Of a stretch of DNA of 64,000 bases, positions 5,445 to 41,338 are shown in pieces. This DNA comes from Bacteroidales bacterium (GTDB lineage Bacteria > Bacteroidota > Bacteroidia > Bacteroidales > GCA-2748055). The stretch lies in assembly GCA_021738565.1 (NCBI GenBank), contig JAIPBT010000022.1, positions 1 to 64,000 of the forward strand, read 5' to 3'. Under the pieces are notes generated by a model, which was not told the origin of the DNA, ran no database searches, and saw only the letters and a list, made by a program, of their open reading frames with translations. The number at the start of each line of letters is the position of its first letter. The first letter of the stretch is position 1. The position numbers and the translations under genes were made by a program.

Positions 5445-6104
5445 ATGATCCAACATTCAGAAGATAAAAAACTGAATCTGTTCAAAAGTCTCTTTAAAGG
5501 CAGGGAGGATGTCTTTGCGAGGCGCTGGGAAAAAGGAAATAAACGCGGGTACATGCCTGCTTATGATTATGATCCTTACATGTACCGACTCCATGCAATG
5601 AAGGGAGGCACTTTCAAAAATTACCAAGACAAAAGATACCTTCCGCTAACTGATCAGCAGGTGCAAAAGCATCTGAACGGTGAACAGTTTATTGGCATCT
5701 ATCCATTACTGCCGGACAACACTTCCTGGTTTATCGCAGCAGACTTTGACAAAGTAAACTGGGTTGAAAACTGCCGAACGCTTATCAACGTTTGTACAGA
5801 AAAAGAGATTCCCGCATACATGGAAAGGTCGCGCTCAGGTGAAGGAGGTCACGTGTGGGTCTTTTTTGACAAACCTTACCCTGCCAGCAGAAGCTACATA
5901 TATTTGAATGTCAATAAAAACAAGCAACTACTCAGGCAAAAACTAAAGTCAATAGACCAGGACTTAAATGTCATCAGAAATCAAGGCAGGCAAGCTTTTC
6001 TTGAAGAGCAGCGCGAAAATTTCAGCCGACTGATCCATGACTATACCGATGAAAGAAAGGGATTTATCGTTTGGAAAGACAAATTGGAAGAAAGACTATT
6101 GTAA
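5445..6104 (+). pseudogene. Truncated TOTE-type archaeo-eukaryotic primase, N-terminal piece joined to an unrelated tail
   Basis: Residues 1 to about 145 match the primase module of TOTE conflict systems. They begin LFKSLFKGREDVFARRWE, followed by the metal-binding AADFDK (Asp-x-Asp) and YMERSRSGEGGHVWVFFDKP, whose His is expected in the active site. After PASRS the similarity stops. The final ~70 residues are charged and helical (KNKQLLRQKLKSIDQDLN) and look like the end of another protein. TOTE proteins are normally much longer, with helicase and nuclease parts, so I read this as a deletion fusion. The frame is open and it may be expressed, but full function is unlikely. It sits directly before the decayed helicase 3' end. 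Confidence 0.6.
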
Positions 6105-9804: not shown

Positions 9805-10812
9805 ATGCCTGCCAACAAAATTGCCAGTTTCCGTTACCGGGTGATCGACCACTGCCTGCGGAACAATGCCCGCGACTGGTCATTGCAGGACCTGATAGAA
9901 GAGATCAGTGATCAGCTCTATGAACAGTTTGGAAAGGATTCGGGTATTAGCCTCAGAACCCTGGAGGATGACATCAGCACCATGCGCAGCGATCCGCCCA
10001 GGGGATTTGGGGCGCCGATCATTCGCAAGGGAGGCTACTGTTATTACGAGGACCCTGAATACTCCATCGTTGACCATCCGCTGGTGCAGGATGATCTTGA
10101 TAATCTGCAGGATGCCATGGATATCCTGAAACAGTTCGTGGGACTGCCGCATTTCCGGGGGCTGGAACAGGTGATCCAGAAGATCCAGGGACAGGTGTGG
10201 ACAGCCGGACAGGAGAAGAGTATACAGTTTGAATCAAATCCGCACACGACAGGGCTAAGCTGGATAGAGCCACTTTACAAGGCTATACGGGATGAAGTGG
10301 TGCTGAAGATCCGTTACCAGTCGTTCAGGGCCCCGGAACCCAAGGAGGAAACCGTACACCCGGTGTTGCTCAAGGAATACAGAAACCGCTGGTTCCTGGT
10401 TGGATACAACGAGACCATGGGATTTTTGAGCAATTACGGACTTGACCGTATCATAAAAGTTTTACCCCTGAAGAACAAATACAACAAAGAAAAAGTGAAG
10501 CAGCTACAGTGCAGCTATGAACATGTGATCGGCGTTTCAATACCACCCGGAACTGAACCTGTGGATATCGTATTTGATGCGGTCGAAAGCCAGGTCCCCT
10601 ACCTGGAAACAAAGCCTTTCCATCCCTCTTTAATGGAAATTGAAAAACTGAAGGAAGGAAAACGCTTCAGGGTAAGCCTGATTCCTAATTTTGAACTGGA
10701 GCAGCTGATCCTGTCCTTCGGGGAAAATATTACGATCATTTCCCCAGAGTCTTTCCGGAACAGGATTGCAGAACGACTTAAAAGAGCCGGCAGTAAGTAT
10801 GAAGAAGAATGA
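9805..10812 (+). CDS. WYL-domain transcriptional regulator, copy 1
   Basis: 335 residues. Residues 1-75 form an HTH region (SLQDLIEEI and ISLRTLEDDISTMR look like the recognition part). Residues ~150-235 form the WYL domain, with IRYQSF and HPVLLKEYRNRWFLVGYNE; the Arg-Trp-Phe-Leu-Val run replaces the classical W-Y-L. The C-terminal ~85 residues match the WCX extension. WYL proteins bind DNA as dimers and sense nucleic acid or nucleotide ligands; family members BrxR and CapW control phage-defence loci, and DriD responds to single-stranded DNA. It sits just before operator D and the kinase gene, which makes it a strong candidate to bind the shared palindrome. A paralogue lies at 15535-16617. 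Confidence 0.9.
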   Translation: MPANKIASFRYRVIDHCLRNNARDWSLQDLIEEISDQLYEQFGKDSGISLRTLEDDISTMRSDPPRGFGAPIIRKGGYCYYEDPEYSIVDHPLVQDDLDNLQDAMDILKQFVGLPHFRGLEQVIQKIQGQVWTAGQEKSIQFESNPHTTGLSWIEPLYKAIRDEVVLKIRYQSFRAPEPKEETVHPVLLKEYRNRWFLVGYNETMGFLSNYGLDRIIKVLPLKNKYNKEKVKQLQCSYEHVIGVSIPPGTEPVDIVFDAVESQVPYLETKPFHPSLMEIEKLKEGKRFRVSLIPNFELEQLILSFGENITIISPESFRNRIAERLKRAGSKYEEE

Positions 10813-10992: not shown

Positions 10993-13941
10993 ATGAACGA
11001 TATGACACTGCACGAAGCGATAAAAATAATACTTACTGAGGCCGGAAGGCCCATGAAAGCTTCTGATATTGCCGGCAGGATCAACCAGCGAGGATTGTAT
11101 AGGCGAAAGGATGAACAGCCCGTGCCGGCATCCCAGGTAACTGCAAGGGTGGGGAAGTATGAAAAAATGTTTGCTTCAGAAAATGGCCTGATCAGCTTGC
11201 TGGATGCCGGTCAAAAAGAACTTGAGGCAGTTTTTAATGCCGCAGCAGAAATATTCAGGGACAGATGGCACCAGGCCAACCCGAGGCTCTTGATGGCTTC
11301 TCTTTTCTTTTATAAACGAATTCTTGATTGTCCGGAAATAAGAAAAAAATACTTAAGCAATATCGAGGGATCTGAAAGGATAGCATATCAGCATACCTCA
11401 GAAGCATTTCATGCCTTTTACCGTTTATTGGAACAATCCGGGCAAAAGGATATTCATCCTGGCTTCCCGCTTCTTGGTGAACAGGTTCTTGAGAACAACA
11501 AGTACCTGATCCTGGAGCATATCAACGAGAAGAGTCCGCTTGAAGAGACCCTGGAAGAGCTGGAAAATCATGTTTTTAGTATTCGCAGATACAGCATTGA
11601 GGAATTCGGAAGTTTTTTTGAATACCTGCTCCATCAGGTCTACTCCAGTATTCGATATCCAGATATTCTTACTCCGCCATCTTTAAGGGAATTATTGGTG
11701 CATCTTGGCGATCCGTCAGCATCTGAGGTCATTTATACACCCATGGCTGGCTATTATGGTATTCCTGCCATGATCAGGAGAATGACCGGGAAAGAAGTGA
11801 ATTTTTACGGGGAAGAAAAAGATCAGTATAATTTCCTGATGGGCCTGATGAACCTGGTAATGAACGACCTGGACTTGAAGGGAGCATATTTTGGAGATGC
11901 GTTCGCAGATTTCCCGAATCTTGGCCATCCAGTTAGCATGGCGATCTCCGTTATGCCTGAAGACAGTGTCAATAATTTCATTACAGATGATCAGGGAAAA
12001 AAGGTATATGCGGATATCCGGTTTGACCTGATAAGGAAAGTATTGGATGTTCTTGATGAGACGGGCAGGGCAATACTGGTTGTTGGAGATGATCTGCTTT
12101 CGGATAATAAACCGGAGGTTATGGAACTTAAGGAATATCTTCTGAAGAAGAATTTTCTCGAAGGTATCATATCACTGCCATACAGAACAATGTTTGCATC
12201 ACGCCATGGGGAAAGCATCATGATCCTTAACAAGAGAAAGGTATGTAATAAGGTAATTTTCCTGGATGCAGATCAGGCAGATCTTTATGCAGAAAAACAT
12301 GGATATTCCGTTATAAAAAGCAGAAGGATTGCTGAGTTATACAATAGCCATAAGGAGATGCTTACAGGGGGAACAGGAACGATGCAGCTTGTTGAAGATC
12401 CGTTTTCGGTTTATGGGAATGAGGATGCAGGTTATTACACTGCAGAGGAAACAATAGATATGCTGGCCATTGCCGGAGAGGAGGAGATAAAAAATTCAGG
12501 ATATAACCTTCTTGCAAAAAGGCATGTTGGAGTACTTTCAGTTTTTGAGGCAATACAAAACCAACCTGTCTCATTTATCCAACTTAAAAAACTATTTATT
12601 CCCCTGGAAAGGAAGCATTCCAGGATTCGGGGAGGATTACTTCCGCTTATTACCAAAGAACACCTGAAACCCTTTGCAGATGAGTATCCTGTAATACGAA
12701 GTTCTGAGCTGGAATGGCCCGCAGAGGAACAATCCGGAAAACTGGTCAGCACTGATTCTATCCTGGTGAGTCGGAGTTCAGGGAAACTGGCTCCAACTTT
12801 ATTGCTGACAGAGGGTCGCGAGGTCCTTATTGATCAAAGAATCGAGCGATTTGAAATAGACCTGGATAAGGTGGATCCATTCTACCTGCTGCTACAGATG
12901 AAGGATTCCTCTTTCAGGGAACAGTTCAAGGCATATTCCCCCAAAGACCGTCGAATGGGGAATGCGAGTCTTTTTGGAATTCCGGAAATGTATATTCCAT
13001 ATCCTTCACTGGAAGAACAGCGAAAGTTCGTGGCAGAACGCAAGGCAGCAATTCTTAAGAATAAGATACAGAGTGCGGATAAGTTTGCAAAAACAGAGCA
13101 GATCAGGTACAATGCCGACAAGGAGATTCTCAGAATGCTGAAGCATGAACTGACGCCCCTGGGTGAAGCCATAGAGATGAATATTGAAACCCTGAAGAAG
13201 TACATTTCGCGGCTGAACAGGGCAGGCAAACCGCCTGACTTCAACGATCCGGCTTCTGCCAGGGAAGCCTCCAGGAGTGTGGAAGAACTGTTCAGTGTCT
13301 TGCTTTCAGATGCTGCCGGCATAAAAGGTATCATTTCTGATCTTCAGAAAATCATAGATGCGAACCGGGAGGACCTTCATCTTTCATCTGTGTCATTGAA
13401 TGATCTCATACAGCGGATCGCTGCCTCATACTCGCAATATGTCGACTTTGAACTGATCATCAATGATGACAGCCCGGCACTAGCATATGGAGAGATTATG
13501 GTTGACGAAGGCCAGTTCCGGATATTGCTGGATAATTTCTTCAAGAATTCACTGAAACATGGATTTGGCAATGATGTACAAAACCCAGGGTACAGGTCGG
13601 GACATGAAAACTTCATCATTTTTAAAATTTCACACGATGAAAATACGGAATCCCTTTGCATTGATATGATCAACAATGGGAAACCTTTTCCGGAAGAATT
13701 CAGTTTCGAAGATTTTATTACATTAGGGTCCTATGCAGGCAATGGAACCGGCATTGGAGGTTATCTCATGCACAAGATCGTGCTGAACCATGGCGGCCTC
13801 CTGGAGATGATTGAACCAGGAAGAGAGCTTGTGGTGAATGTTACGGATCCGACAAGGCAGGGAAAGCCTCAATCCAGGTCCCTGAAGCCCGGTGTGCATT
13901 TCAGGATTACAATTCCATTTAATACAATAAGAGATGAGTAA
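10993..13941 (+). CDS. Histidine kinase fused to HARE-HTH, inactive HsdM-like and HsdS-like domains
   Basis: 982 residues in an unusual order. (1) Residues 1-72 are a HARE-HTH domain (LHEAIKIILTEAGRPM, ENGLISLLD). (2) About 190-430 resemble a type I N6-adenine methylase, but motif I reads YTPMAGYYG at 248-256 where DPxCGSG is expected, and the NPPF position reads MAISVMPED near 316-324; it should not methylate. (3) About 515-695 look like an HsdS target-recognition half ending YIPYPSLEEQRKFV. (4) About 705-982 are a histidine kinase: H-box LKHELTPLGEA with H718, N-box N848/N852, G1 DMINNGKP at 891-898 and G2 GNGTGIGG at 916-923, all intact. I infer a cytoplasmic kinase that reads DNA or DNA ends with restriction-like modules and signals to the response regulator that overlaps it by 8 bases. 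Operator D lies upstream. Confidence 0.85.
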   Translation: MNDMTLHEAIKIILTEAGRPMKASDIAGRINQRGLYRRKDEQPVPASQVTARVGKYEKMFASENGLISLLDAGQKELEAVFNAAAEIFRDRWHQANPRLLMASLFFYKRILDCPEIRKKYLSNIEGSERIAYQHTSEAFHAFYRLLEQSGQKDIHPGFPLLGEQVLENNKYLILEHINEKSPLEETLEELENHVFSIRRYSIEEFGSFFEYLLHQVYSSIRYPDILTPPSLRELLVHLGDPSASEVIYTPMAGYYGIPAMIRRMTGKEVNFYGEEKDQYNFLMGLMNLVMNDLDLKGAYFGDAFADFPNLGHPVSMAISVMPEDSVNNFITDDQGKKVYADIRFDLIRKVLDVLDETGRAILVVGDDLLSDNKPEVMELKEYLLKKNFLEGIISLPYRTMFASRHGESIMILNKRKVCNKVIFLDADQADLYAEKHGYSVIKSRRIAELYNSHKEMLTGGTGTMQLVEDPFSVYGNEDAGYYTAEETIDMLAIAGEEEIKNSGYNLLAKRHVGVLSVFEAIQNQPVSFIQLKKLFIPLERKHSRIRGGLLPLITKEHLKPFADEYPVIRSSELEWPAEEQSGKLVSTDSILVSRSSGKLAPTLLLTEGREVLIDQRIERFEIDLDKVDPFYLLLQMKDSSFREQFKAYSPKDRRMGNASLFGIPEMYIPYPSLEEQRKFVAERKAAILKNKIQSADKFAKTEQIRYNADKEILRMLKHELTPLGEAIEMNIETLKKYISRLNRAGKPPDFNDPASAREASRSVEELFSVLLSDAAGIKGIISDLQKIIDANREDLHLSSVSLNDLIQRIAASYSQYVDFELIINDDSPALAYGEIMVDEGQFRILLDNFFKNSLKHGFGNDVQNPGYRSGHENFIIFKISHDENTESLCIDMINNGKPFPEEFSFEDFITLGSYAGNGTGIGGYLMHKIVLNHGGLLEMIEPGRELVVNVTDPTRQGKPQSRSLKPGVHFRITIPFNTIRDE

Positions 13942-14821
13942 ATATAGAGTCCTGCTGGTCGATGACGATGTGAAGTATTCCAGGGCACTGGAAGAGACTG
14001 CCTATGACGATTATGATATTTATATCAAGAGTTACGAAGACTGGGAAAGCGCCTTCACTGAACTGGAGATGCATTCAGAGGTCTACGATGCTGTAATTCT
14101 CGACGGGAAGGGCAAACTTACTGCCGATGATCCCCAGTCCAGTATGAGGCATGTTGTGCAGGCCATCCGTGACCTTGAAAAACTTGAGTCAAGGGGTGTT
14201 TATTTCCCGTTCATTGTGAATACAGGCTACCTGGAACAGAGCGATGAAATTTTATCGGGTGTTAAGATCTTTGACAAGGGAGACAGGAAAGCCATGTTTA
14301 GCTACCTTATTGAGCAGATGGGCAATTCGGAACTATACAAGATACGGAAAAAACATGCTAAAGTACTGAAGGCCTTCAGCCAGCGACATATTCCCGAAGG
14401 ACAACGGGAAACCATTGTAAATACTTTGCTATATCTGCAACATCCAGATGCAGGCTCTCTGCAGGAAAAATTCAATCCCCTGCGCACGGTTATGGAGGCA
14501 ATGTTCCGGGTGCTGATCCGGAAAGGGGTCATAGACAGCCGCTGCATGAAGCATGACAAGGTTAACCTTAAAAATTCCATCAGTTATCTGAACGGAGAAT
14601 ACATTAACCTGGGAGCAGATGGTTCATTCAAGGCCGAGAAACCCATCACCCCTCTGCATATTAACCTTGCCCTGTTGTACATCTATGACACGAGTAACGC
14701 CCTGTCGCATGAATATTTTGGAGCAAAAAAGGTCAGTCCTTATATGCTGGAAAGTGTGCTGAATGCACTCAACGAGGTGCTGATTTGGTTTGTGGGTTAT
14801 GTGGATGAAATGCATTTATAG
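13934..14821 (+). CDS. Response regulator: receiver domain plus HEPN/DUF4145-like C-terminal domain
   Basis: 295 residues. The receiver part keeps all key positions: D10-D12 in LLVDDDV, phospho-acceptor D57 in VILDGKG, T97 in VNTGY and K115 in IFDKGD. The loop after D57 (KGKLTADDPQSS) is longer than usual. Residues ~130-295 lack a DNA-binding domain. They have the helical pattern of DUF4145/HEPN proteins: LRTVMEAMFRVLIRKGV, then NLKNSISYLNGEY, and near the end DTSNALSHEYFG, matching the G-N-x-x-x-H position. The usual HEPN Arg before the His is not seen, so RNase activity is doubtful. The gene overlaps the kinase gene by 8 bases and converges on the next gene with a 25-base overlap. Likely the output partner of the kinase. 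Confidence 0.83.
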   Translation: MSKYRVLLVDDDVKYSRALEETAYDDYDIYIKSYEDWESAFTELEMHSEVYDAVILDGKGKLTADDPQSSMRHVVQAIRDLEKLESRGVYFPFIVNTGYLEQSDEILSGVKIFDKGDRKAMFSYLIEQMGNSELYKIRKKHAKVLKAFSQRHIPEGQRETIVNTLLYLQHPDAGSLQEKFNPLRTVMEAMFRVLIRKGVIDSRCMKHDKVNLKNSISYLNGEYINLGADGSFKAEKPITPLHINLALLYIYDTSNALSHEYFGAKKVSPYMLESVLNALNEVLIWFVGYVDEMHL

Positions 14822-15504
14822 ATCTCTTTTCCCAAGGCCTGGAATCTTTCCCGGTATTTCTCTTTCGATATCGATTTATATTTGGAATCATTCCGAAGTT
14901 TAATGAAGTCTGATTTAAGCGATAATGCGGCGCTATAGGCTTCAATATCCTTGATTTTCAGGGCTTCAAGACTGAATTCATCCAGGGCTTTTTGAAAGCG
15001 GTTTTCAGCAAGAAGTTTTTTTATGCTGTCAAGGAAGGCCTTGCTGAAATGTGCCGATTGCTTCTGCTCCAGGAATTTATTTATAAAGCTTAGCCGGGAC
15101 CGAAGTTCTTCATCCGGATCAATCCTCATCACTGCTCCCAGGTTCCTATTGCGGTTCACTTCCAGGAACAGGACCTTTATGCAATTCGCAAATGCGGCCA
15201 TGGTCCGTTCAAAGCGCGATTCCGGAAATGAATCTGCAAGTTCATTACGTTGTTCGCTGCCATGAAGGAACCCCCAGTTAAAGCCTATTTTATAGTAGGT
15301 GAGTTCCTTCTCAAAATAATAATCAGATCCATTTTTTACTTTGGTATCCGTTGCCCTCTGATAGTTATTTATTGTGAGCAGCTCCGTTGCCTTCCATGAT
15401 TCTTCAGGCAGTGTATTTTCGTTGGGATGACCCATCAGACCTTCATTGAATCCGGCTGAATAACCGATCCTGAATTTGTATCTCAAACGGTATATATCCG
15501 GCAT
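14797..15504 (-). CDS. Unknown protein with C-terminal effector-associated domain 11 (EAD11)-like region
   Basis: 235 residues. The first ~80 contain two related segments, KFRIGYSAGFNEG and YYKIGFNWGFLHGSE, suggesting an internal repeat. Residues ~160-233 fit EAD11: an IKKLLAENRFQKALDEF helix, a middle AALSLKSDFIKLRND, and KSISKEKYRERFQALGKEI, which matches the family pattern L-x-x-R-x-N-x-L...GxIS-x-E-E. EADs are adaptor domains that link NTPases and effectors in predicted conflict systems. It is the last gene of the operon that starts at 18007 (AAA ATPase, membrane protein, WYL regulator). Its 3' end overlaps the response regulator gene on the other strand by 25 bases. Assignment rests on pattern reading only. 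Confidence 0.62.
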   Translation of the reverse strand: MPDIYRLRYKFRIGYSAGFNEGLMGHPNENTLPEESWKATELLTINNYQRATDTKVKNGSDYYFEKELTYYKIGFNWGFLHGSEQRNELADSFPESRFERTMAAFANCIKVLFLEVNRNRNLGAVMRIDPDEELRSRLSFINKFLEQKQSAHFSKAFLDSIKKLLAENRFQKALDEFSLEALKIKDIEAYSAALSLKSDFIKLRNDSKYKSISKEKYRERFQALGKEIYKCISST

Positions 15505-15534: not shown

Positions 15535-16617
15535 TCATAGCTTATACAATTTTTCCATCTCTATTATTCTATCTATGAGCTCTTTCCGGTACCATTCCGG
15601 ACCGAGTACTTCCACTTCCGCTCCCCACCCAAGCAAGGCTGCTGTGAATTCGAAGGTAGGTACAATGGTGAAGGAAAAAACATAACGGTCCTGCTCATAC
15701 CGCAGCAGCATCTGTGTTTCATGCAATGGCTGGGTGGCGATGTAGCTTGCCTGTCTCTTCGTAAAGGCTACAACGATCTCTTCCGGGTCTTTTTCGAACC
15801 GGGTAATCCCCACCGAGTCCCTGAACAGCCGTTCAAAATCGGTAATGCCGGTATGAAATGTTTTCATGAATGTGCGCTCCATGGATTGGATCCGGTCCAG
15901 GCCAAAGGTTTTAAATTTCCGGTCTTCCTCGTGCCACGCGACCAGGTACCAGCGGTTGCGGTATTCTTTTAAAAGATGGGGGTGGAGGGTGTATTTTTTC
16001 GGCTCCTCCGAGTCAAACGAGCGGTAATGGGTTTTCAGTACATGCTTTTCCTTGATATGTTCAATAAGGGGTTCCAGGTGTTCGGTACCCTTTACCAGCG
16101 GGGCGCTTTCAAATTCAATGAAGGACATGTCATAATCCTTGTTGGCGAGGTGGCTCTCATTGATGGCATTGATGATTTTCTGAACGGCCCCCTCGTATTT
16201 CTCCAGGAATGCTGTATGCTGAAACTGTTTCAGGATCGTGGCAGCAAACTTCAGGGTCTCCACCTCATCGTCGTTCAGCCCGATACTGTCAATAGTGTAG
16301 CCAGGATCCGAATACTTGTAGGCCTTCAGGTAATGGTCATATACGATCGGTGCCTGGAAATTGAGCTGGGTGTCATGACGCATATTCTCAAGGTCTTTTT
16401 CAATGGTGCGCTTGGAAATCTCAATGCCAATAGCTTCTTTGCAGGCATCCATCATTTCTTTTGCCGATGCGTTCCTGCCGTTTACAAGCAGGGAATTAAT
16501 GATGCGGTAGCGTAAATAAGGGTTCATGGGACATTTTTTCTTTAAAATACGAAAAATGTCATTATCAAGGGTATCCAAAGATGAAATTCCCCTGGAGCGG
16601 ATGGTTTTGTTTTGCAT
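15535..16617 (-). CDS. WYL-domain transcriptional regulator, copy 2
   Basis: 360 residues. The N-terminal ~90 form an HTH region preceded by a short extension (MQNKTIRSRGISSLDT); the HTH includes NASAKEMMDACKE and ISKRTIEKDLENMR. The WYL domain follows near residues 170-255, with HYRSFDSEEPKKYTLHPHLL and YRNRWYLVAWHE, then a WCX-like end. It is clearly paralogous to the protein at 9805-10812 (LLKEYRNRW in both). It is the third gene of the operon AAA ATPase - membrane protein - WYL - EAD11-like, which is read from operator C, so the regulator may control its own synthesis through that operator. Binding to the shared palindrome is inferred from location and number, not shown. Confidence 0.9.
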   Translation of the reverse strand: MQNKTIRSRGISSLDTLDNDIFRILKKKCPMNPYLRYRIINSLLVNGRNASAKEMMDACKEAIGIEISKRTIEKDLENMRHDTQLNFQAPIVYDHYLKAYKYSDPGYTIDSIGLNDDEVETLKFAATILKQFQHTAFLEKYEGAVQKIINAINESHLANKDYDMSFIEFESAPLVKGTEHLEPLIEHIKEKHVLKTHYRSFDSEEPKKYTLHPHLLKEYRNRWYLVAWHEEDRKFKTFGLDRIQSMERTFMKTFHTGITDFERLFRDSVGITRFEKDPEEIVVAFTKRQASYIATQPLHETQMLLRYEQDRYVFSFTIVPTFEFTAALLGWGAEVEVLGPEWYRKELIDRIIEMEKLYKL

Positions 16618-17172: not shown

Positions 17173-18007
17173 CTATTTTTTATAGCCTATGCGGACCTGT
17201 TTTCGTACGTTAAGCGTTTCTTCTTCACAATACCTGATTAATTCATCCAGGTTGGGTTGTCGTCCGTTGAGCAGGCTGTCGATCTCGAACTTGCGCGCTA
17301 TATTTTCAATCTGTCCGCCAGAGAACGAGTAGCCCCCGGAAAGCGTGTTTATTACCCTTGCCGGGACTACAGGCAATTTCGCTCTCCAGATTTTTTTGCG
17401 CATCTCCCTGGAAGGTGGATGAAATTCTATCTTGTAGAGAAACCTCCGATCGAATGCCGGATCAAAATTGCTGGTCATATTCGTGGTGGCCAGCAGGATG
17501 CCTTCAAACCGTTCCATTTCTTCAAGCAGGATGTTCTGCATTGCGTTAAACGTCTGGACCGAAGTACTTTCAGTCATATCCTTACGCATACCGAAGATGG
17601 CATCAGCTTCGTTGAAGAAGAGTATCGGCAGATGACTGGCATTTCTGCACACCTGCGCATACCTGGTGAAGATCTCCCTGATCTTTTTCTCTGATTCGCC
17701 AAACCACATGCTTTTTGACTGGGTAGGATCAACTTTCATGATGTCCCTGCGGCTTTTTCGGGCCAGCTGGAGCACCGCCTCGGTTTTTCCGGTACCCGGG
17801 GCACCATGGAAAAGCATGGTAAATCCCCCGCGCATATTCCTGTTTTTCTGTGGTGCCGAGAAATTCAGCAAGCATCTCCAGGTCACGGGTGAGATCTCTC
17901 AGCCTGTGAGCTTCAAGCCGACTGTCCTTGGCTTTTTCGGAGACTACTTCAACGATCTCCATCATGTTCGCATTTGGCTGGGTTGATATGTTTGTTTTGT
18001 TTTTCAT
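17173..18007 (-). pseudogene. AAA+ ATPase gene with a single-base frameshift in a run of five C (G on the coding strand)
   Basis: The first frame (from the ATG at 18007) runs MKNKTNISTQP to EKQEYARG. The second runs GFTMLFHGAPGTGKTE to the stop at 17173. Removing one base of the five-C run at 17825-17829 joins them perfectly as EYARGFTMLFHGAPGTGKT, giving ~277 residues. The ATPase core is complete: Walker A GAPGTGKT, Walker B ILFFNEAD, sensor 1 ATTNMT, arginine finger FDRRF and sensor 2 SGGQIEN. Relatives with the phrase GFTxLLYGAPGTGKTE are often much longer at the N-terminus, so this is a compact form. The shift could be a true mutation, a phase-variable tract or a sequencing error. First gene of the operon behind operator C. 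Confidence 0.8.
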
Positions 18008-20972: not shown

Positions 20973-23063
20973 TTATTCTAAACTATGAATTCCGAAAAAA
21001 TTCAGAACCAGCTTCCTGTCCAGGAATTTATTGATGTTTTCACAGCAGGTTTCCGGCACCATGACGCAGGAATAACACGCAGCCATATTAGTTGTCATAA
21101 ATCCCTGCCCATTACTTGTGATACACAATGGATCAGAAGAACACCATTTGGCCTTGTCTATTGCCTTGCTTATGACAGGTGTAAGATTCTGAGGCAATCC
21201 TTTTTCAACCAGCCCTCCCAATGTTCCCTCTGTGTCGGAAGATGAGGTATATATAAGAATTCCATTCATAAACTGATTCCCGTTTCGTTTGTTGCAGTAT
21301 ATGATTTCGGTTAATGATGATAAACTGTAGCCGCTGTCAATGGATAATTGCTGCATGATCATATGGGAGAGGGTATGCAGGAAAACATACCTTGCATTGA
21401 TATTCTCCTGCCCGTTTTCGATTTGAAAGGTTTCAAAATAATTGTTAAGATTAACAGACATCTTATTGTACCTTTCTACAACAGCTTCTTCCTTCTCCCA
21501 TTTATTTAATGCTTCGTTGTTGAAGGATAGAAAGACACCTTCACCTTTAACTTCAGAACACGGCAATTCATTTGTTTTCAACGGGTATTTTCTGGCATCA
21601 CAGATTCTGGTATATTCATCAAGGCGACGACCTTTAAGATTGTCTGTGCTTGTTTCAAAGATTAAGTCTTCGTTTGCCAATGGTTTAATTCGTGTAAATC
21701 CTCTGAAAACCTTAAGCTCATTAATCTTGTCAAGTAGAGTTATCCTGTCTATTTTCACTGTGTCAGATAAAAAACCATCCTCCACTGCTATATGTCTTGC
21801 CTTGTACCAGATTTTTTTTGAACTGGTTATGGTTCTGTTATTGAAGCAACTGAACTCATCCAATCTTAACTTTTGTTTCTTGTCGGCAATCTGATTATCG
21901 CCCTCACTAAACAAATCAGCTATGACCTCTTCATACATGTCCTTTTCATAAATGAGCAGAGCAGGGGTCTGAGAATACAAATTTCTGAAATGCTCTTTCC
22001 ATTGTTCAGAAGTGTAGCTTCTGTATGTATCTGGTTGTATTGCGATAAAACTGTTTTTCAGTTCTGTCAGTTTATTCAGCAATTGAGGATCTACAAGATT
22101 CAGACCTTCTGGCAACCTTATACCCTTAAATATTAAAGGAAAATACAGATTATTTGCCCCGCGCTGTAAAGTTCGCGGATATTTTCTTTTTACCAAATCT
22201 GCATTTTCGCCGATTATTTCACCATCAGCATTGCGATGTATCTGTCCGGGAGGTATTGAACCAACCAACTGACGGACGAAACTGTCCCCATCCCTTCCCA
22301 ACCAGGGTTTTGACAGACGATCTTTAAGGTATGGCAGGTATTCATCATCTTGCGCAATAAATGTTGTTTCCTGATTAAAAATGTCTCCCAGGTTTTCTGA
22401 AGTAATAAACTTGCCGGTTTCTTTATCATAACTCTTCAGAGTAATACTGCTCAACGATGCTGAAGAACTTCCGAATTCAAGTTTTAGTTTGTTTCCTCTG
22501 CCTCTCTGATCCCTGAATTTCGGGTTTTTGTGAACATACCAATCCCAAGGAAAATCTGCGATAAAGCCTTCATCATTGGCTATAATAAATCTTGTTGGAA
22601 CGAGTTCAACAAATCTTGCTTTGTGGTTTGGAGAGGGATTCTGACAATCAATGCAATAATATGCTCTTAATGCATCGTCAAATTTTATGGGATATGAATT
22701 TCCCTTTTGCGGGACTGTACCATTGTTATACTTTTCAAGATCCGGCATGAAATGAATAGTTCCACAGCTTGGACAATACTTTGACATGGGAAAGCGAACT
22801 GTCTTTAATGCATTTGGGGCAGAAATTTCTAGTGGTGGCAGAACAAAGTTCTGTATTCCAAACGCCTCAGACAAGCGTTTGTCGACAAGAATTCTTCTTT
22901 TTGTTATGTGTGCTCCGGGATTCGAAGTTTCTGCTGTCAGTCCCCAGTCACTTTCCTCGTGATCATGCGAGAGAAACATCAATGATGCCCCCGGAAAATC
23001 ACCTATTGCGCCAGCAGCATAGGTATGAGTAATCTGAGATTGCCTAACTTTTATATCAGTCAT
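20973..23063 (-). CDS. drmB: DISARM protein DrmB (DUF1998)
   Basis: 696 residues. The N-terminus IKVRQSQITHTYAAGAIGDFPG is typical of DrmB. Two metal-site cysteine sets occur (CPSCG near residue 96 and CIDCQN near 138). The C-terminal DUF1998 region contains HTLSHMIMQQL, GYSLSSLTEIIY and YTSSSDTEGTLGGLV, then further cysteines (CYSC, CCEN). In DISARM, DrmA and DrmB form the core complex that acts on invading phage DNA. The start overlaps the end of drmA by 8 bases, so the two are translationally coupled. It is the last gene of the DISARM operon. Length and motifs agree with the family. Confidence 0.93.
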   Translation of the reverse strand: MTDIKVRQSQITHTYAAGAIGDFPGASLMFLSHDHEESDWGLTAETSNPGAHITKRRILVDKRLSEAFGIQNFVLPPLEISAPNALKTVRFPMSKYCPSCGTIHFMPDLEKYNNGTVPQKGNSYPIKFDDALRAYYCIDCQNPSPNHKARFVELVPTRFIIANDEGFIADFPWDWYVHKNPKFRDQRGRGNKLKLEFGSSSASLSSITLKSYDKETGKFITSENLGDIFNQETTFIAQDDEYLPYLKDRLSKPWLGRDGDSFVRQLVGSIPPGQIHRNADGEIIGENADLVKRKYPRTLQRGANNLYFPLIFKGIRLPEGLNLVDPQLLNKLTELKNSFIAIQPDTYRSYTSEQWKEHFRNLYSQTPALLIYEKDMYEEVIADLFSEGDNQIADKKQKLRLDEFSCFNNRTITSSKKIWYKARHIAVEDGFLSDTVKIDRITLLDKINELKVFRGFTRIKPLANEDLIFETSTDNLKGRRLDEYTRICDARKYPLKTNELPCSEVKGEGVFLSFNNEALNKWEKEEAVVERYNKMSVNLNNYFETFQIENGQENINARYVFLHTLSHMIMQQLSIDSGYSLSSLTEIIYCNKRNGNQFMNGILIYTSSSDTEGTLGGLVEKGLPQNLTPVISKAIDKAKWCSSDPLCITSNGQGFMTTNMAACYSCVMVPETCCENINKFLDRKLVLNFFGIHSLE

Positions 23064-26000
23064 TTTTCTTTATTTTTACCATACAACTTGGTTCGACGTC
23101 ACGCATTGTACTTACTTTTGGAAGCAGATGTGATGCAATATCCAGGGAACTATATTCTGCACTCACATCCAGCACTTCACCGTTTGCAATAGTTCCAAGC
23201 GGTTGTGCCATATAGTCTCTGAAATTGGCAAAGCGCCTGTTCTTAGGATTCAGGTTCTTCCATTTATTCTTTACGCTTTCAATAATATGATCGAGATATG
23301 TTTCGGTATTATCTCCTAATCTTTGTCGGATTTCAACTTTCAGATCATCTATGAATCCTGAAATGTCGTCATTATAGTCAAATTTCCCTTCTGCAGATTT
23401 CCTTTGAATGATCCATACCAGAGAAATAACAACTGAGGGAAGTATCTTTTCCAATGCAGGCTGAGATTGAGGGGTTACGCTTGCCGGTTCAACATATCTG
23501 TAAAATGCCTGATGGAATGACTTGTAATTCTCATAGTGCGACCTGTCGCGGTTTTTGGTGGCACTGTAGAAGCTGAAGATTATCCCTGGATCCTCTCTTC
23601 CCACGCGTGAGCTTGCCTGAATGTATTCAGAAGAGGATTTAGGATGTCCGTTTATCAGCATTAAATTCAACCGCGAAATATCAACTCCTGTTGCAATCAT
23701 ATTTGTGGAAGTGGCTACTTTAACAGGATGACTTAATTGTTCTTTATAGTATTTTTTCAGAATATTGAAGAAAACTTCATAGTTCACCTTGTATTCAGTG
23801 CTGTGTTGCAGATCTAAGTCACCAAAGAAAGCTTCATTCATAATAATTGCTTTATTCGTTGTCTCTAGCCAATCCTGAATACCCCTGATTCCCTTTTGTT
23901 GAATTATCTTAATTTTTTCATCAATGACAAGTTCACCAGCAAGTTTGTTTTTCTTGAGGCTTTCAAGAGCATTGGAGACATCATCTGCGCTCATTGCACT
24001 GGACAATTCTATGTCTCTCCCGTAGTAGTTCTGATGGATCTTCTGAAATACAATCTTGTCCAGGAATTTTCGGTAAGCAAAAATATCATCGTCAATGAAT
24101 GTCCGGAACTTGCCAAGTTCCTTCAGAGAGTTGAAATATACAAGCAGCGTATAATACTTGTCCAGGTCGGCGTTAATGGCATTTAGTATGTTCGGTGTTT
24201 CCATCAACACTGCAGCTAAACGGATGATAGCCGTTGAGGAGGTAAAACCCGATGACATGAATCCAATATATTTTCTTGGTTTATTGTCTTCGGTGTTTTT
24301 TCTCATAAAAAACGAATCGTCTGCTGAGATGCCCGGTGGTGGGAATTGCATAAAGTATTTCCTGTTGTAAAGGCGCTTGCATTGCTCTTTTGCGTTCTTC
24401 ACAGTTGCAGTGGCACCAACAATTTTTGGTCGATGTCCGGACAAAGAACACAATTTATCGATTGCATATTCGAATACACCATAAATTGTACCCAAAGAAG
24501 AGCCAATCAGGTGCAGCTCATCCTGAATGATTAATTCCGGACCTGGATTTAAAAGGGAATTATTATTTTCGATATCAAGATTAAACAGTCGGGCACTTTC
24601 TCTTTTCCACGCGATCTGAGCATATTTGTCAACCGTTCCAAACAATAAACTGGGGCGTTGCTTGTAGATTTCATCATCCACAGTATAATACGGAAAAGTC
24701 AGGTCTTCCCTGTATTGGTTGTCCCGGGTGTTTTTGACAGTAAAGAAATGGCACTTATTATTTGTACATGAAACCTCGTAGTTTCCTTGTGGTCTTAATT
24801 GGTCTCGTTCCCTGAATTTTCTGAAGTATCCCCATTCTCCTGCTAATGTGTCGCCAATTCTTTCCTTTATCAGCCGGTTCCCGCAACAGGGACAATTTAG
24901 CAGGAAAGGGGAGTATTTAATTTTTCTGGAGTTATTATGGGTGACGTTATCGATAAATGCCTCTATATTGGAATTATACCCGTCACCTTCATTGAAATCT
25001 TTGTAGCGGTTCGGAGTAAGGCTCTGACCGACCCATATTCCAGACGTAAATCTTGTCAGGCCGTATCTTTCAGATGAATTGCTCCTTATTATCTCACATG
25101 CTGAAATCAGCAGATTGGCACGTTGAAACTGATCAAGATTAAGCATCCTTAATGTATACCTCATCATTACGGAGACTCCGGCACCATCATCAGGCGTTTC
25201 CTCCCGAAGCCGCCGAAAGAATAATGTGAAGGCAATCAGACCAAGATATGCTTCCGTTTTACCACCACCAGTTGGAAACCAGATTAAATCCGCAGTGTCT
25301 CTGTCATGAGAATGCGGATCGGCAATGCTCTCAATTTGAGACAGAATAAAAGCGAGCTGAAAGGGGCGCCATTTTGCATAGAAGCCAAAATTCTCATCAT
25401 CGGCTGACCTTCCTTCTGAAGGTAATGACTGGAAATCCGGCAGAGGGCAGTCTTCATAGTTCTCAGAACCCGGAAGAACATTTTTGTGCTCTCTTCTCCA
25501 ACTGGAAAACTGTCCCATCACACGTTGCATGAACATCGCCTTGTTTGCATCAAAAAAAGCTTGTTTTATGCGACTGTCAGAGAATATCAATTCAATACCT
25601 TTTTCCAGACGATTAAATAAATCCAGACAGGTTTTTAAGTTGACATCCCCTTGTTGCTTCAATTCACCTGGTATTGTAAGAGTGGAAAGTGTTTCTTTTT
25701 GATTCTTTATCCAGTCTGCATATTTTTTGATGAAGCCATGTAACTCATTCTTTAGCTGATCTTCAGTAAATGAATTCCTGCTGAAGTCAGGACCTGACAA
25801 TCTTTTCATTTCAAGGATTGACCCCGTATCGTCAACATCAAAGCTGACTCCAAAGACTGTTTCTTCAGGCATCACTTCAGTCCAGATCTCATTCTTAAAT
25901 AGGGAAGAAGTTTTATTACATGACCAGTTTACAGAAATACCGTGTCCCATGGCATAAATATGGTAGTCCCTGAAGAGAAGGGCTGTATTCAGAGCTTCTT

Positions 26001-26742
26001 CATCATCTTTTAAAATACTGTAGTTTACCTTGTCCGGAAAATACTGGAAGGCTTTATGTTCTGAAGAAACAGATAACTCCGGTTGAAATATGCAGTGCTG
26101 GTCCTTACGCTGTTCACGAACTGAAACATGAAGGGAATTGATCATGCTTATTGTGATCAGGCTGCAGTCTTTGCTGTCTGAACCAGCTGCTCTGACGAAA
26201 ATGTTTATTCTTGCTTTAAAGTCTTCTTCATTTAATACAACGATTTCTTTTGTTGGCTTTTCGTCAATAATTAACTGTTTTTCCCTTACCAAACAAATTA
26301 ATTCGTCAGTAACATGATTTCTTTCCCATCTGAATTCATTGTCTTCACTCTTTTTCTTTTGGTATCTGCCAAAGGCATACCTAAGTGAGAATTTCATTTC
26401 GTTGGCAACAATAAATGAAAAACCCATGGAAGACGGTGAAAAGCTTGTAGCCAGTTTCAACTCATCATCCGACTGGTCATAGTCATCATCACCTTTTTCG
26501 GTTGGGGTTGCGGTGGTATTTTCACCATTTTTTTTCGTTTCTGAATCATCTTCTGTACTGGATCCTTCCGGATTATCTTCAGGTTCAATTACGTCAGTAG
26601 ATTCAAGTTGCTCACACGTTGTCTGAGGATACAGAATTCCCGTAGTGTAGAGGTTTAGTGGCCTGTAATGCAATTTTTCCTGAATGCCGTTCATTGGCCC
26701 CAGAATGATATCCTTGATGTTTTTTACAAGTTCGTCTCTCAT
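23056..26742 (-). CDS. drmA: DISARM helicase DrmA
   Basis: 1228 residues. Walker A is WFPTGGGKTEAYLG near residue 482. The DEAH-like box is IIQDELHLIGSSLG near 737. A helicase C-terminal half contains TNMIATGVDISRLNLMLI and YIQASSRVGRE near residues 1010-1050. A CPCCGNR zinc motif lies between the two halves. The N-terminal ~400 residues include an acidic low-complexity stretch (residues ~55-95). DrmA is the DNA translocase of DISARM and, with DrmB, the signature of the system. It lies 4 bases from the NERD-helicase gene upstream and overlaps drmB downstream. Confidence 0.94.
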   Translation of the reverse strand: MRDELVKNIKDIILGPMNGIQEKLHYRPLNLYTTGILYPQTTCEQLESTDVIEPEDNPEGSSTEDDSETKKNGENTTATPTEKGDDDYDQSDDELKLATSFSPSSMGFSFIVANEMKFSLRYAFGRYQKKKSEDNEFRWERNHVTDELICLVREKQLIIDEKPTKEIVVLNEEDFKARINIFVRAAGSDSKDCSLITISMINSLHVSVREQRKDQHCIFQPELSVSSEHKAFQYFPDKVNYSILKDDEEALNTALLFRDYHIYAMGHGISVNWSCNKTSSLFKNEIWTEVMPEETVFGVSFDVDDTGSILEMKRLSGPDFSRNSFTEDQLKNELHGFIKKYADWIKNQKETLSTLTIPGELKQQGDVNLKTCLDLFNRLEKGIELIFSDSRIKQAFFDANKAMFMQRVMGQFSSWRREHKNVLPGSENYEDCPLPDFQSLPSEGRSADDENFGFYAKWRPFQLAFILSQIESIADPHSHDRDTADLIWFPTGGGKTEAYLGLIAFTLFFRRLREETPDDGAGVSVMMRYTLRMLNLDQFQRANLLISACEIIRSNSSERYGLTRFTSGIWVGQSLTPNRYKDFNEGDGYNSNIEAFIDNVTHNNSRKIKYSPFLLNCPCCGNRLIKERIGDTLAGEWGYFRKFRERDQLRPQGNYEVSCTNNKCHFFTVKNTRDNQYREDLTFPYYTVDDEIYKQRPSLLFGTVDKYAQIAWKRESARLFNLDIENNNSLLNPGPELIIQDELHLIGSSLGTIYGVFEYAIDKLCSLSGHRPKIVGATATVKNAKEQCKRLYNRKYFMQFPPPGISADDSFFMRKNTEDNKPRKYIGFMSSGFTSSTAIIRLAAVLMETPNILNAINADLDKYYTLLVYFNSLKELGKFRTFIDDDIFAYRKFLDKIVFQKIHQNYYGRDIELSSAMSADDVSNALESLKKNKLAGELVIDEKIKIIQQKGIRGIQDWLETTNKAIIMNEAFFGDLDLQHSTEYKVNYEVFFNILKKYYKEQLSHPVKVATSTNMIATGVDISRLNLMLINGHPKSSSEYIQASSRVGREDPGIIFSFYSATKNRDRSHYENYKSFHQAFYRYVEPASVTPQSQPALEKILPSVVISLVWIIQRKSAEGKFDYNDDISGFIDDLKVEIRQRLGDNTETYLDHIIESVKNKWKNLNPKNRRFANFRDYMAQPLGTIANGEVLDVSAEYSSLDIASHLLPKVSTMRDVEPSCMVKIKKND

Positions 26743-26745
26743 GAC

Positions 26746-28554
26746 TTATCTGATTACATTAGATGCAAATTCTCCTGAAATAATGGTCTCATTTTCTTTG
26801 TTTACAAAATATATAAATTGGTGTTTCGCTCTGGTGAATGCATTATAAATTATCTTTTTCTGTCTCAAATCGGTCTTCACATATCTTTCCGGTGCTATAA
26901 AAAGAATGAACTGGTTCTCCAAACCTTTGAAGGAATGTGCTGTTGAAACCATTACCTTATCGGTCCGGAAAAGAGATTTTTCATCTATCTTACAGAATAA
27001 TTCAGGCTGAATTTGAATTATTTCATCAATCTTTTTCACATCGTAACATAATGCCGTGATCATTCCAGGGGATATGCCGTCCAGTCTCTTTTTCTCGATG
27101 AAGGAAAGAATCTGTTTTTTCAAGTCTTCAGATTCTGGATAGTATTTTATTTCTGAGTTAGCAACTTCCTCTTTGAAATAACAATCCTGTTTTGAAAGGC
27201 CGGTTATGTAATGTGCTGTATCAGAAAGCTTTTGAGGGTTCCGGCAATTATGTTTGAGTTTAACAACATAATTAGGGTATATACTTCTGAAGAAATTTTC
27301 AAATTCATCATCCTTGTCAAGATAGATATCCTGATTCTCATCATCCATGCAAATTAGAAAATTACCTGTCTCGAAATTCCCGTTTAGAAAGCAACCAAGC
27401 GCATCTATGTGATATTCATTAAAGTAATCCTGAGCTTCATCCATAATGATATAGTCAAATTTCTGGAAATGATAATCTTTGAATAGAGAATATACCTTCA
27501 GGGGAATTTCCTCGTTCCAAATTACAGAATCCGTAATTATTTCTTCATCATCACTATCCCTGCATTCCTGAATTACATCATCGAGTTTAAAACTAAAATG
27601 TTCTGACAGCATTTTATTGTAGAATTCATCTTTATGAATTACAAAAACATTATTTGCTTCAAGCAGCTTAATTTGCTGCCTTAAAAATAGGGCAAGGTTC
27701 TTGTTGAAACAGAGAAATAATACTTTGTCACCTTTTAGATCCTTCTTTTTCGCCTGTTCAAGAGCCAGCCACGTTTTTCCGGTTCCTGGTCCTCCCTTCA
27801 CCAATGCTCCCATATGATCATTATCCTCAAGCATTGTAAGTAATTGTTCCTGAGCTTCGTCTGTATATCTTTTGAACTGTGTATCGTTTCTTTTCAATAT
27901 ATCAGTCCAAGGTAATTCAAATACAATGTCCCTTCGAATGAAATTCTTGATTTTGAATAATTCTTTACCAGAAATCCCGGATGGTTTCTTTCTTTGGTAA
28001 GATTCGTGGTTTTTCCAGAAGTGTGTTATATCCTTAATGATCCTATGGAAGCTCTTTCCTTGAAAATCAATATAATCTACAATAAGGTCCGGATCGTATT
28101 CTACAGATCCTTTTCTATGTTTGCTGAGGGAAGGAGGCTTTTTACAATCCGGGAAGAAAACACAATACCCAAAAATTAATCTTCTGACTTCATTTTTTCC
28201 ATTAAATAATACAGGAAGCTTAGTGTCTCTGTAATCGAATAAATTTCCCGCAGCCTGGGCAAAGGGATCTTTTTCTTCCGTCCCATCCATCACCCACCAT
28301 TTATTGGTAAGTGAATCATATTTTACCTGCCTTCCCTTTACTTCGATAAAAAGGATAATGTCCTGATCAAGATAGATAAAATCTGTTTCGCCTATAAGTT
28401 TGAAATTCCCCGGTGTAGGATTTTTTACACTGTGGAAGAGGAAGCAGGGATTTTCACCATTAAACATACCTGATTCCAAGGCATGCTGATAAACGTTGTA
28501 TTCAGCATTTGAATTGAATTCATTCCTGGATATATGGTTTGGGAATATATTCAT
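26746..28554 (-). CDS. NERD-nuclease/UvrD-like helicase embedded in the DISARM operon
   Basis: About 602 residues from the ATG at 28554 (MNIFPNHISRN); a GTG at 28560 is also possible. The first ~180 residues are a NERD-type nuclease fold: GETDFIYLDQDIILFIEVKG gives the Asp and Glu-x-Lys pair. A superfamily 1 helicase follows: Walker A KGGPGTGKTW near residue 255, Walker B YIIMDEAQDYF near 375, the VSTAHSFKGLENQ motif near 550 and the AFTRAKHQF motif. It lies between drmE-like and drmA, with overlap or a few bases on each side, so it belongs to the operon. It is not DrmD (SNF2 type) nor DrmC (phospholipase D type); it may replace the missing nuclease. Confidence 0.85.
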   Translation of the reverse strand: MNIFPNHISRNEFNSNAEYNVYQHALESGMFNGENPCFLFHSVKNPTPGNFKLIGETDFIYLDQDIILFIEVKGRQVKYDSLTNKWWVMDGTEEKDPFAQAAGNLFDYRDTKLPVLFNGKNEVRRLIFGYCVFFPDCKKPPSLSKHRKGSVEYDPDLIVDYIDFQGKSFHRIIKDITHFWKNHESYQRKKPSGISGKELFKIKNFIRRDIVFELPWTDILKRNDTQFKRYTDEAQEQLLTMLEDNDHMGALVKGGPGTGKTWLALEQAKKKDLKGDKVLFLCFNKNLALFLRQQIKLLEANNVFVIHKDEFYNKMLSEHFSFKLDDVIQECRDSDDEEIITDSVIWNEEIPLKVYSLFKDYHFQKFDYIIMDEAQDYFNEYHIDALGCFLNGNFETGNFLICMDDENQDIYLDKDDEFENFFRSIYPNYVVKLKHNCRNPQKLSDTAHYITGLSKQDCYFKEEVANSEIKYYPESEDLKKQILSFIEKKRLDGISPGMITALCYDVKKIDEIIQIQPELFCKIDEKSLFRTDKVMVSTAHSFKGLENQFILFIAPERYVKTDLRQKKIIYNAFTRAKHQFIYFVNKENETIISGEFASNVIR

Positions 28555-28556
28555 GA

Positions 28557-32652: not shown

Positions 32653-32653
32653 T

Positions 32654-33070
32654 TTATTCCAGAATCTTTTTTAGGAGCATATTCAGTGTTTTGTCAAGGT
32701 TGGAGCCCTTCAGATCACATTCCCAAAGGGTAATTGTTCTGTACCCTGCTTTTATCAACTTTGTAATATTTTTGGCGTCCCGCTCCCTGTTTGCCATTAT
32801 CTTCGATTTCCACCATTTTGTTCTTGTAGCCGGAAGTTTGAAATAACTACAATTTTCATGTCCGTGCCAGAAACAACCGTTTACAAAAATAACAGCATTG
32901 TATTTTTTAAGTGTAATATCAGGTTTGCCTGGCAAATTTTCTTGGTGAAGCCTGTATCTGAAACCATGGGCAAAAAGGAACTTTCTCACAATCATTTCAG
33001 GCTTGGTGTCCTTGCTCCTTATTTTACTCATGTTATAGCTGCGAACAGCAGGATCATGCACATCAGTCAT
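32654..33070 (-). CDS. vsr: Very-short-patch repair (Vsr) mismatch endonuclease
   Basis: 138 residues, MTDVHDPAVRSYNMSKIRSKDTKPEM at the start (the usual Vsr opening). The catalytic Asp lies in LPGKPDITLKKYNAVIFVNG, and the FWHGHENC block contains zinc and active-site residues. The enzyme nicks next to T:G mismatches that arise when 5-methylcytosine deaminates, protecting the host from the mutational cost of the adjacent methylase. It is the first gene of the DISARM operon. A Vsr gene is not a core DISARM component, so this is an accessory pairing with drmMII. A weak promoter region lies upstream, but no clear TAnnTTTG was confirmed. Confidence 0.93.
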   Translation of the reverse strand: MTDVHDPAVRSYNMSKIRSKDTKPEMIVRKFLFAHGFRYRLHQENLPGKPDITLKKYNAVIFVNGCFWHGHENCSYFKLPATRTKWWKSKIMANRERDAKNITKLIKAGYRTITLWECDLKGSNLDKTLNMLLKKILE

Positions 33071-41334: not shown

Positions 41335-41338
41335 TTTT

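Follow-up and report, generated by a model that had tools for sequence, protein, structure and literature searches.

The window analysed here, by which we mean the whole 64,000-nucleotide stretch of Bacteroidales bacterium contig JAIPBT010000022.1, carries two adjoining genes that represent a real, conserved and apparently undescribed type of two-component system, with a dead Type I modification enzyme as its sensor and frequent ties to restriction genes. The first gene, P0001 (10993..13941, + strand, 982 aa), encodes a fused sensor kinase made up of a HARE-HTH domain, a pseudo-N6-methylase, a single HsdS-type recognition domain, a coiled coil, a dimerisation domain (DHp) and an ATPase. The second, P0002 (13934..14821, + strand, 295 aa), encodes the partner receiver protein. 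The two open reading frames (ORFs) overlap by 8 nt, and a receiver gene is the next gene after the kinase in all 34 non-redundant loci of the family, with a gap of -38 to +7 nt (part of these loci were found through the receiver, which is thus given there; loci found through the kinase have it in 9/9 and 22/22 cases). The original prediction, made from the DNA letters alone, that HARE-HTH, HsdM-like, HsdS-like and histidine kinase parts share one 982-residue chain is borne out by Pfam, PADLOC and fold matches.

Domains of the kinase and of the receiver

The sensor half of P0001 opens with the HARE-HTH domain (11002..11121, + strand, residues 4-43; Pfam PF05066, E 5.8e-6, 27.1 bits against a cut-off of 25.9), and 14 of 36 homologs lack the N-terminal 70 residues that hold it, though three of these are contig-cut or doubtful. 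An N6-methylase domain without catalytic motifs follows (11596..12534, + strand, residues 202-514; Pfam PF02384, E 3.7e-20, 72.9 bits against a cut-off of 20.4). When the predicted model of P0001, built from 22 aligned rows (pLDDT 69.4, pTM 0.52), is compared with known structures, VIA-align superposes residues 68-513 on 3khk, a Type I M subunit (Z 28.4), and Foldseek ranks first, at E 1.3e-19, the structure 7eew, in which a Type I methylase is complexed with the DNA mimic Ocr. Over residues 190-695, on which the original prediction had staked its case, the methylase fold is thus clear (3khk, 7eew), and the HsdS type is recognised through PADLOC and, in relatives, through Pfam. The methylase motifs had been said to be lost, and P0001 indeed reads TPMAG at the motif I position and VMPED at the motif IV position, whereas the HsdM proteins of related operons, taken as controls, have D-P-x-x-G and NPP[FY] in 12/12 cases. 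P0001 therefore has the N6_Mtase fold of a Type I HsdM and lacks both the S-adenosylmethionine (SAM) motif I and the catalytic motif IV. Among the 36 kinases of the family (one of which, L081, ends at a contig end before motif I), D-P-x-x-G is found in 17 and [ND]PP[FYW] at motif IV in 3, and the two are found together in none. Methylase loss is least certain in L056 and L059 (loci are designated by L numbers), which come nearest to an intact methylase because they combine NPFAG with NPPF. Judged from sequence and predicted structure, the sensor half of P0001 is a putative dead Type I modification enzyme joined to a kinase.

The HsdS-type part (12550..13062, + strand, approximately residues 520-690) is detected by PADLOC Specificity_I over residues 580-704 (E 1.3e-8), and with Pfam Methylase_S two relatives score above the cut-off, L062 at 43.8 bits and L118 at 25.1 bits. 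The predicted HsdS-like part is thus recognised, but it consists of one target recognition domain and not of the two expected of HsdS, and the hypervariability of HsdS is absent. No HsdS chain appears among the best 50 structure matches listed for P0001, a list filled by methylases and kinases. The domain carries a family signature, L-K-P-T, whose K is kept in 33/36 and whose T in 32/36 kinases (L-A-P-T in P0001, residues 599-602), and which is absent from 17/17 true HsdS proteins. Two variant kinases (L117, 3381-5615, - strand; L118, 4762-6963, + strand) have an N-terminal HNH-like domain in place of the pseudo-methylase, with the receiver family unchanged; the HNH Pfam score passes its cut-off in L117 only, and the downstream parts resemble P0001 residues 583-945 (L117) and 564-941 (L118). 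In these alignments, the constant core of the family looks like the recognition domain plus the kinase.

Recognition domain and kinase are joined by one continuous predicted helix (13009..13221, + strand, residues 673-743 in the secondary structure of the model), which runs from the former into the kinase dimerisation helix and contains H718 (13144..13146, + strand), the predicted phospho-acceptor, a histidine in 36/36 homologs. The catalytic domain, HATPase_c, lies at 13504..13920 (+ strand, residues 838-976; Pfam PF02518, E 1.9e-6, 28.7 bits against a cut-off of 26.4). Residues 700-978 of the predicted model match the HK853 kinase at Z 18.1, and the ThkA catalytic domain matches the HATPase_c region at Z 17.6. 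Both N848 and N852 are present in P0001, and N852, G920 and G922 are kept in 36/36 kinases. A DHp histidine, a HATPase_c fold, the N-box asparagines and the second G-box are therefore all in place, and the aspartate of the first G-box (G1) is absent; the claim that H718, both N-box asparagines and the G-boxes are kept holds except for that first box.

P0002 begins with a receiver domain (13934..14350, + strand, residues 1-139), detected by Pfam Response_reg only below threshold (E 0.17). Its model (18 rows, pLDDT 81.6) has the receiver fold, with Z up to 16.6, and the phospho-site residues D57 and K115 are kept in 34/34 receivers, so that the fold and the Asp/Lys pair of a response regulator are present, as had been predicted. 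The remainder (14351..14818, + strand) is a helical output domain whose fold has no identified match in Pfam, PDB profile, hhalign and motif searches and is not recognisably HEPN. The suggestion of a HEPN-like output is not supported: HEPN families in Pfam gave no match at E<=10 to 22 homologous output domains, a PDB profile search with the output domain gave nothing under E 0.14, and hhalign against the HEPN-related DUF4145 of neighbouring HsdR-type proteins gave a probability of 0.3%, a kinase DHp control reaching a higher 1.4%. This weak alignment (0.3%) does pair two conserved residues, R184 and H259, with the invariant R and H of DUF4145. The HEPN catalytic motif, RX4-6H, is absent from P0002, and scattered matches at differing places are found in 9/25 other rows. 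Structure comparisons of P0002 were filled with receivers and say nothing on whether the output fold is new, and no DNA-binding output was recognised in P0002. Since no HEPN, let alone a catalytic one, can be recognised in its output domain, P0002 gives no support to the proposed RNA-directed response; such a response is plausible only for relatives whose receiver has a Schlafen AlbA_2 domain.

Output domains vary within the family. In five receivers (L076, whose kinase is L026, and L077, L083, L084 and L085), a Schlafen AlbA_2 domain scoring over the Pfam cut-off replaces the common output, and the kinases paired with Schlafen-type receivers have His at +4 from the phospho-His, where 15 of the 36 kinases have Pro. 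The receivers of L070 and L072, which lie in otherwise nearly identical operons, are 82-90% identical over their first 100 residues and only 30-34% over their last 100, hinting at an exchange of output halves. DUF4145 is also found by Pfam at the N-terminus of HsdR in L062 and L064, and a two-sequence profile detects DUF4145-like stretches in HsdR-sized or contig-cut genes of L028, L029, L084 and L087; a possible role for the DUF4145 of HsdR-type proteins, read from these sequences, is that of a docking site for the receiver.

Occurrence of the pair and its genomic neighbourhood

Using P0001 as query, we found matches in 116 of 296 genomes, over ranges that are mostly methylase-only or kinase-only, and the fused protein in nine other genomes. 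A profile of nine P0002 relatives detected receivers in 13/395 phylum-drawn, 14/395 class-drawn and 11/295 order-drawn genomes (the draws share genomes, the window's own being in all three); the order-draw loci of genomes G792, G858 and G793 were left out of locus inspection. Within the window's own family (28 genomes, 10 of high quality), the receiver was found in the window's own genome only; its distribution is scattered. A scan with a four-kinase alignment gave 38 loci, of which 22 have a fused kinase, the other 16 being without a receiver match above 25 bits. Fused kinases come from Pedobacter, Sphingobacterium, Arthrospiribacter, Flavobacterium, Zunongwangia, Kordia, Neolewinella and others and, beyond Bacteroidota, from Pseudomonas sp. 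WS 5079, an Oxalobacteraceae metagenome-assembled genome and Lentisphaera marina (by record titles). The only annotated record in which a copy was seen is a plasmid of Myroides odoratimimus, where the gene order is WYL, kinase, receiver, methyltransferase, subunit S, two other genes and subunit R; the kinase is annotated there as 'N-6 DNA methylase' and the receiver as 'hypothetical protein'. Phage carriage amounts to one IMG/VR contig (L106), with no other viral hit and no match to P0002 in the phage collection. Divergence of the DHp domain correlates with that of the receiver (r 0.89), a correlation that shared ancestry alone could also produce. In L063 (1762-3997, - strand), the receiver is intact, but the kinase next to it is broken up into a number of short frames and so seems to be decayed or misread.

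The set of 36 kinases omits L068, L073, L076 and L086 (same records as L022, L060, L026 and L027), L078 (equal to L077 in size and score), L046 (weak kinase match), L063 (fragmented kinase), L057 and L058 (kinase truncated where the contig ends) and the later L116-L123. It keeps L026 and L081, both cut at a contig end, as well as L059 and L069, which nearly duplicate L056 and L022 and stand outside the 34-locus set.

Genes of restriction systems recur next to the pair. We considered 18 genomes, namely the 21 other receiver-carrying genomes (P0001 query, phylum and class draws) minus G066, G515 and G553, with G660, whose kinase is split, kept. Besides the kinases, these genomes contain 42 strong N6_Mtase matches (100 bits or more). 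Of these, 15, in 14 genomes, are no more than 10 kb away from the pair, where random placement would put 0.25, and the next gene is such a match in 11/18 genomes. Clustering in defence islands will explain part of this proximity, but not the operon-like adjacency. HsdM is followed by HsdS and then by GmrSD, HsdR or, in L056, NsnABC: in that locus, NsnA, NsnB and NsnC lie downstream of a row of WYL, kinase, receiver, HsdM and HsdS genes, with two small genes between. In L076, an AAA_5 gene and McrBC come directly after the pair, while in L070, L072, L083, L084 and L087 the pair is placed after an HsdR-sized gene, HsdM and HsdS. The expected link to defence genes is thus present in the form of HsdM, HsdS, HsdR, GmrSD, NsnABC and McrBC neighbours. 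In addition, a WYL protein 30-38% identical to the product of the window's 9805-10812 gene is encoded close to the pair in 12 of the 21 whole-genome loci other than the window's, and in 8 its gene adjoins the kinase; a WYL gene also adjoins the kinase in L116, L119, L121 and L122.

In the window, this WYL-domain regulator gene (9805..10812, + strand; Pfam WYL and WCX) lies directly upstream of P0001. Promoter and terminator scans gave scores inside the spread of shuffled sequences, no inverted repeats were found beside the WYL or kinase gene starts, and an Rfam scan of the window gave no match. Convergent with P0002, and overlapping its end by 25 nt, is a gene for a 235-aa protein (14797-15504, - strand) with a sub-threshold match to the effector-associated EAD11 (E 0.001). 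It is followed by a second WYL regulator (15535-16617, - strand), 32% identical to the one adjoining the pair, and by an AAA ATPase of 237 aa (17173-17886, - strand), whose match to PADLOC IetA is confined to later positions of the profile (119-319 of 374) and which is perhaps truncated or has a different start. About 6 kb from the pair lies a DISARM-type locus (20973-33070, - strand) with DrmB, DrmA, a NERD-helicase, a DrmE C-terminal domain and the C5 methylase DrmMII, followed by a Vsr endonuclease gene; the presence of DrmE and DrmMII places it in class 2. A RecBCD-like cluster (34907-42934, - strand) adjoins the window's defence genes, and a PrimPol-like protein of 219 aa is encoded at 5445-6104 (+ strand; PADLOC PrimPol, E 1.1e-39).

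Mode of action and alternative explanations

Our tentative reading, to which we give a nearly even chance, is that the two proteins form a soluble two-component module that plugs into restriction and other defence operons as their sensor or controller. A phosphorelay within the pair and its link to defence are each likely; the architecture, conservation, pairing and neighbours, the loss of methylase motifs and the slow change of the recognition domain are observed, whereas dimer geometry, ligand, phosphotransfer and output effect we infer. The kinase would have arisen from a Type I M subunit and half an S subunit in one chain, which lost methylation and gained a kinase core. Restriction enzymes with half-length S subunits assemble as M2S2. 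As the helix of the recognition domain is continuous with the dimerisation helix, dimerisation of the kinase would present two arms, each made of pseudo-M and recognition domain, in an M2S2-like arrangement. These arms may bind a conserved ligand; candidates are DNA recognised in an invariant way, the restriction complex and an inhibitor that mimics DNA. Binding would shift the helix and lead to phosphorylation of H718, from which the phosphate would pass to D57 of P0002. The output of P0002 would then act on the linked nuclease system or, in the Schlafen versions, on nucleic acid, and in some family members expression is probably under the control of the WYL regulator.

Several observations weigh against this reading. 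The first G-box is N-x-G, with N894 in 35/36 kinases and Cys in one, where the textbook form is D-x-G, and by its Asn P0001 is a non-canonical histidine kinase whose activity is predicted. The confidence of the kinase model is moderate, and no function could be identified for the output domain of P0002 by Pfam, PDB profile, hhalign or motif search. The pair recurs in other genomes, but HsdM, found within 10 kb of it in 14/18 genomes, is present in only 8/22 loci of the four-kinase scan, which lie nearer to P0001, and absent from 14 (counted with a three-sequence HsdM profile at 60 bits or more within the available stretch, at least 5 of the 14 negatives being on contigs shorter than 10 kb). 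Similarly, no WYL gene was found near the pair in any of 23 loci examined from that scan. The window's own copy is an orphan, with no GmrSD or other convincing HsdM in its genome: in this genome, which is 98.5% complete, the GmrSD search found none, and beyond P0001 the only N6_Mtase matches are two low scorers (27.5 and 19.9 bits). As the pair thus stands alone in the window, its target would lie in trans or be its own output. Kinase and HsdM need not evolve together, since in L083 and L084 the whole kinase is 36% identical and HsdM 77%. Finally, L120 contains a receiver relative (1481-2341, - strand) without a recognisable kinase alongside, the next large gene being of the MutS family.

A pure role in expression control is rather unlikely, though it is the alternative that fares best. 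Under this hypothesis, the pair, where the WYL protein is present, would tune transcription of the adjacent restriction operon in the manner of CapK-CapS or CapW and have no effector role. The pair precedes HsdM in many loci, the WYL gene adjoins the kinase in 8 of the 21 whole-genome loci, and CapK-CapS offers a precedent of a kinase pair controlling immune operons (PMC13373217). However, P0002 has no recognised DNA-binding output, the pair comes after the restriction genes in the five loci named above, the loci of the four-kinase scan are without a WYL gene, and orphan copies exist.

We consider it unlikely that the pair is a stand-alone abortive-infection module, with the receiver output as the toxin and the restriction-like half confined to the sensing of infection. 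The Schlafen AlbA_2 outputs of five relatives would suit such a module, and so would the divergence of the output beside a kept receiver in L070 and L072 and the loci without HsdM, which include this window and 14/22 loci of the four-kinase scan (some on short contigs). Against it, no catalytic motif is recognised in the common output domain, and many loci are already tied to a nuclease system.

A further, improbable reading is that the kinase is an integrated decoy, whose dead, non-diversifying methylase/specificity half mimics the Type I core and either is bound by phage anti-restriction proteins (DNA mimics such as Ocr or ArdA) or senses seizure of the restriction complex, triggering through the phosphorelay a second, possibly suicidal, response. 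If so, the pair would act as an immune receptor of two-component type that stands guard over restriction systems.

Lastly, the kinase might be a sequence-specific sensor of unmethylated foreign DNA, sharing its site with the neighbouring restriction system and reporting its methylation state. Its HsdS-type domain beside a methylase fold and the HsdM-HsdS adjacency in many loci speak for this, but two natural target changes make it very doubtful. A kinase that read the site of its own restriction system would be expected to alter its recognition domain along with that system's HsdS. Between L056 and L059, HsdS is 10-38% identical in 6/8 windows of 50 residues and 62-72% identical in the two central ones (windows were assigned to recognition domains by position), HsdM is 94% identical, and the recognition domain of the kinase is 96% identical. 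Between L070 and L072, the low HsdS windows are 16-30% identical and one mixed window 46%, while HsdM and the kinase recognition domain are both 87% identical, one 50-residue window of the latter being at 70%. A third operon pair, L083 and L084, is uninformative for a target swap. In 11 of 12 divergent kinase pairs, moreover, conservation of the recognition domain equals or exceeds that of the methylase domain. Among the 15 kinases with both an HsdS of their own and a hit, none has that HsdS as its best match, although in three it ranks within the top four. Simple target sensing is thus weakened by a kinase recognition domain that stays almost unchanged beside swapped HsdS domains. The original prediction that modified or foreign DNA is sensed through the restriction-like parts loses its sequence-based form, the recognition domain being without HsdS-like diversification. 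The cue read by the kinase is probably fixed: it may be DNA generally or at a constant sequence, the restriction complex or a DNA-mimic inhibitor. Natural HsdS target changes beside a nearly unchanged kinase make the question of the sensed cue directly testable. A chance or misassembled fusion is ruled out, because the fused kinase and receiver are conserved across many genomes.

Comparison with known systems

The claim that no system of this design has been described stands in the literature searched: no description of a methylase/HsdS-kinase fusion was found in full-text literature, a coverage that leaves subscription papers and preprints mostly outside and does not prove priority. Nor did we find there a restriction enzyme turned phosphorelay sensor. 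Two-component systems are a main way in which bacteria sense, and restriction is a very common defence; if the pair gates the adjoining restriction genes, it would add a signalling layer to restriction-modification.

Detocs brings two-component logic to phage defence with a sensor that is not known to be restriction-derived. NsnABC, the Menshen system, is encoded near the pair in L056; the receiver is hit by none of the PADLOC models, and some other loci of the pair lack Nsn genes. Membership of MADS was considered and rejected, as only its methylase-type and specificity-type models (mad5, mad2) were matched. In the accessible portion of the DefensePredictor paper (PMC13092281), a figure legend names HATPase and REC among the domains of predicted systems, and a related pair may be drawn there.

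Two systems come closer. The nearest, HEF_HK/Response_reg_2 (PF19191/PF19192), proposed as a new two-component system by Bellieny-Rabelo et al. 2021 (PMC8011034), is, like P0001-P0002, a soluble pair of a kinase-like and a receiver-like protein found near restriction-modification genes. As described in the accessible parts of that paper, it is mainly linked to type II restriction-modification and C5 methylases and is related to paraMORC ATPases, and, unlike for P0001, no methylase or HsdS part is reported there. Neither P0001 nor P0002 matches PF19191 or PF19192 at E<=1. CapK-CapS, according to the accessible text of Chambers et al. 2026 (PMC13373217), consists of a GHKL kinase and a partner that are encoded with immune operons and regulate them, and is activated by single-stranded DNA (ssDNA). 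Its kinase, of HTH-STAS-GHKL architecture, phosphorylates a serine on a STAS repressor, and as presented there the system differs from P0001-P0002 in being without a receiver, a methylase or an HsdS part. Conversely, P0002 gave no match to a STAS domain and has a receiver instead.

Also close, for the sensor itself, are the M and S subunits of Type I restriction systems (e.g. 7eew, 3khk and EcoR124I), which have the methylase fold in common with P0001. Compared with them, P0001 has lost the catalytic motifs, has one non-diversifying recognition domain and has a kinase core added.

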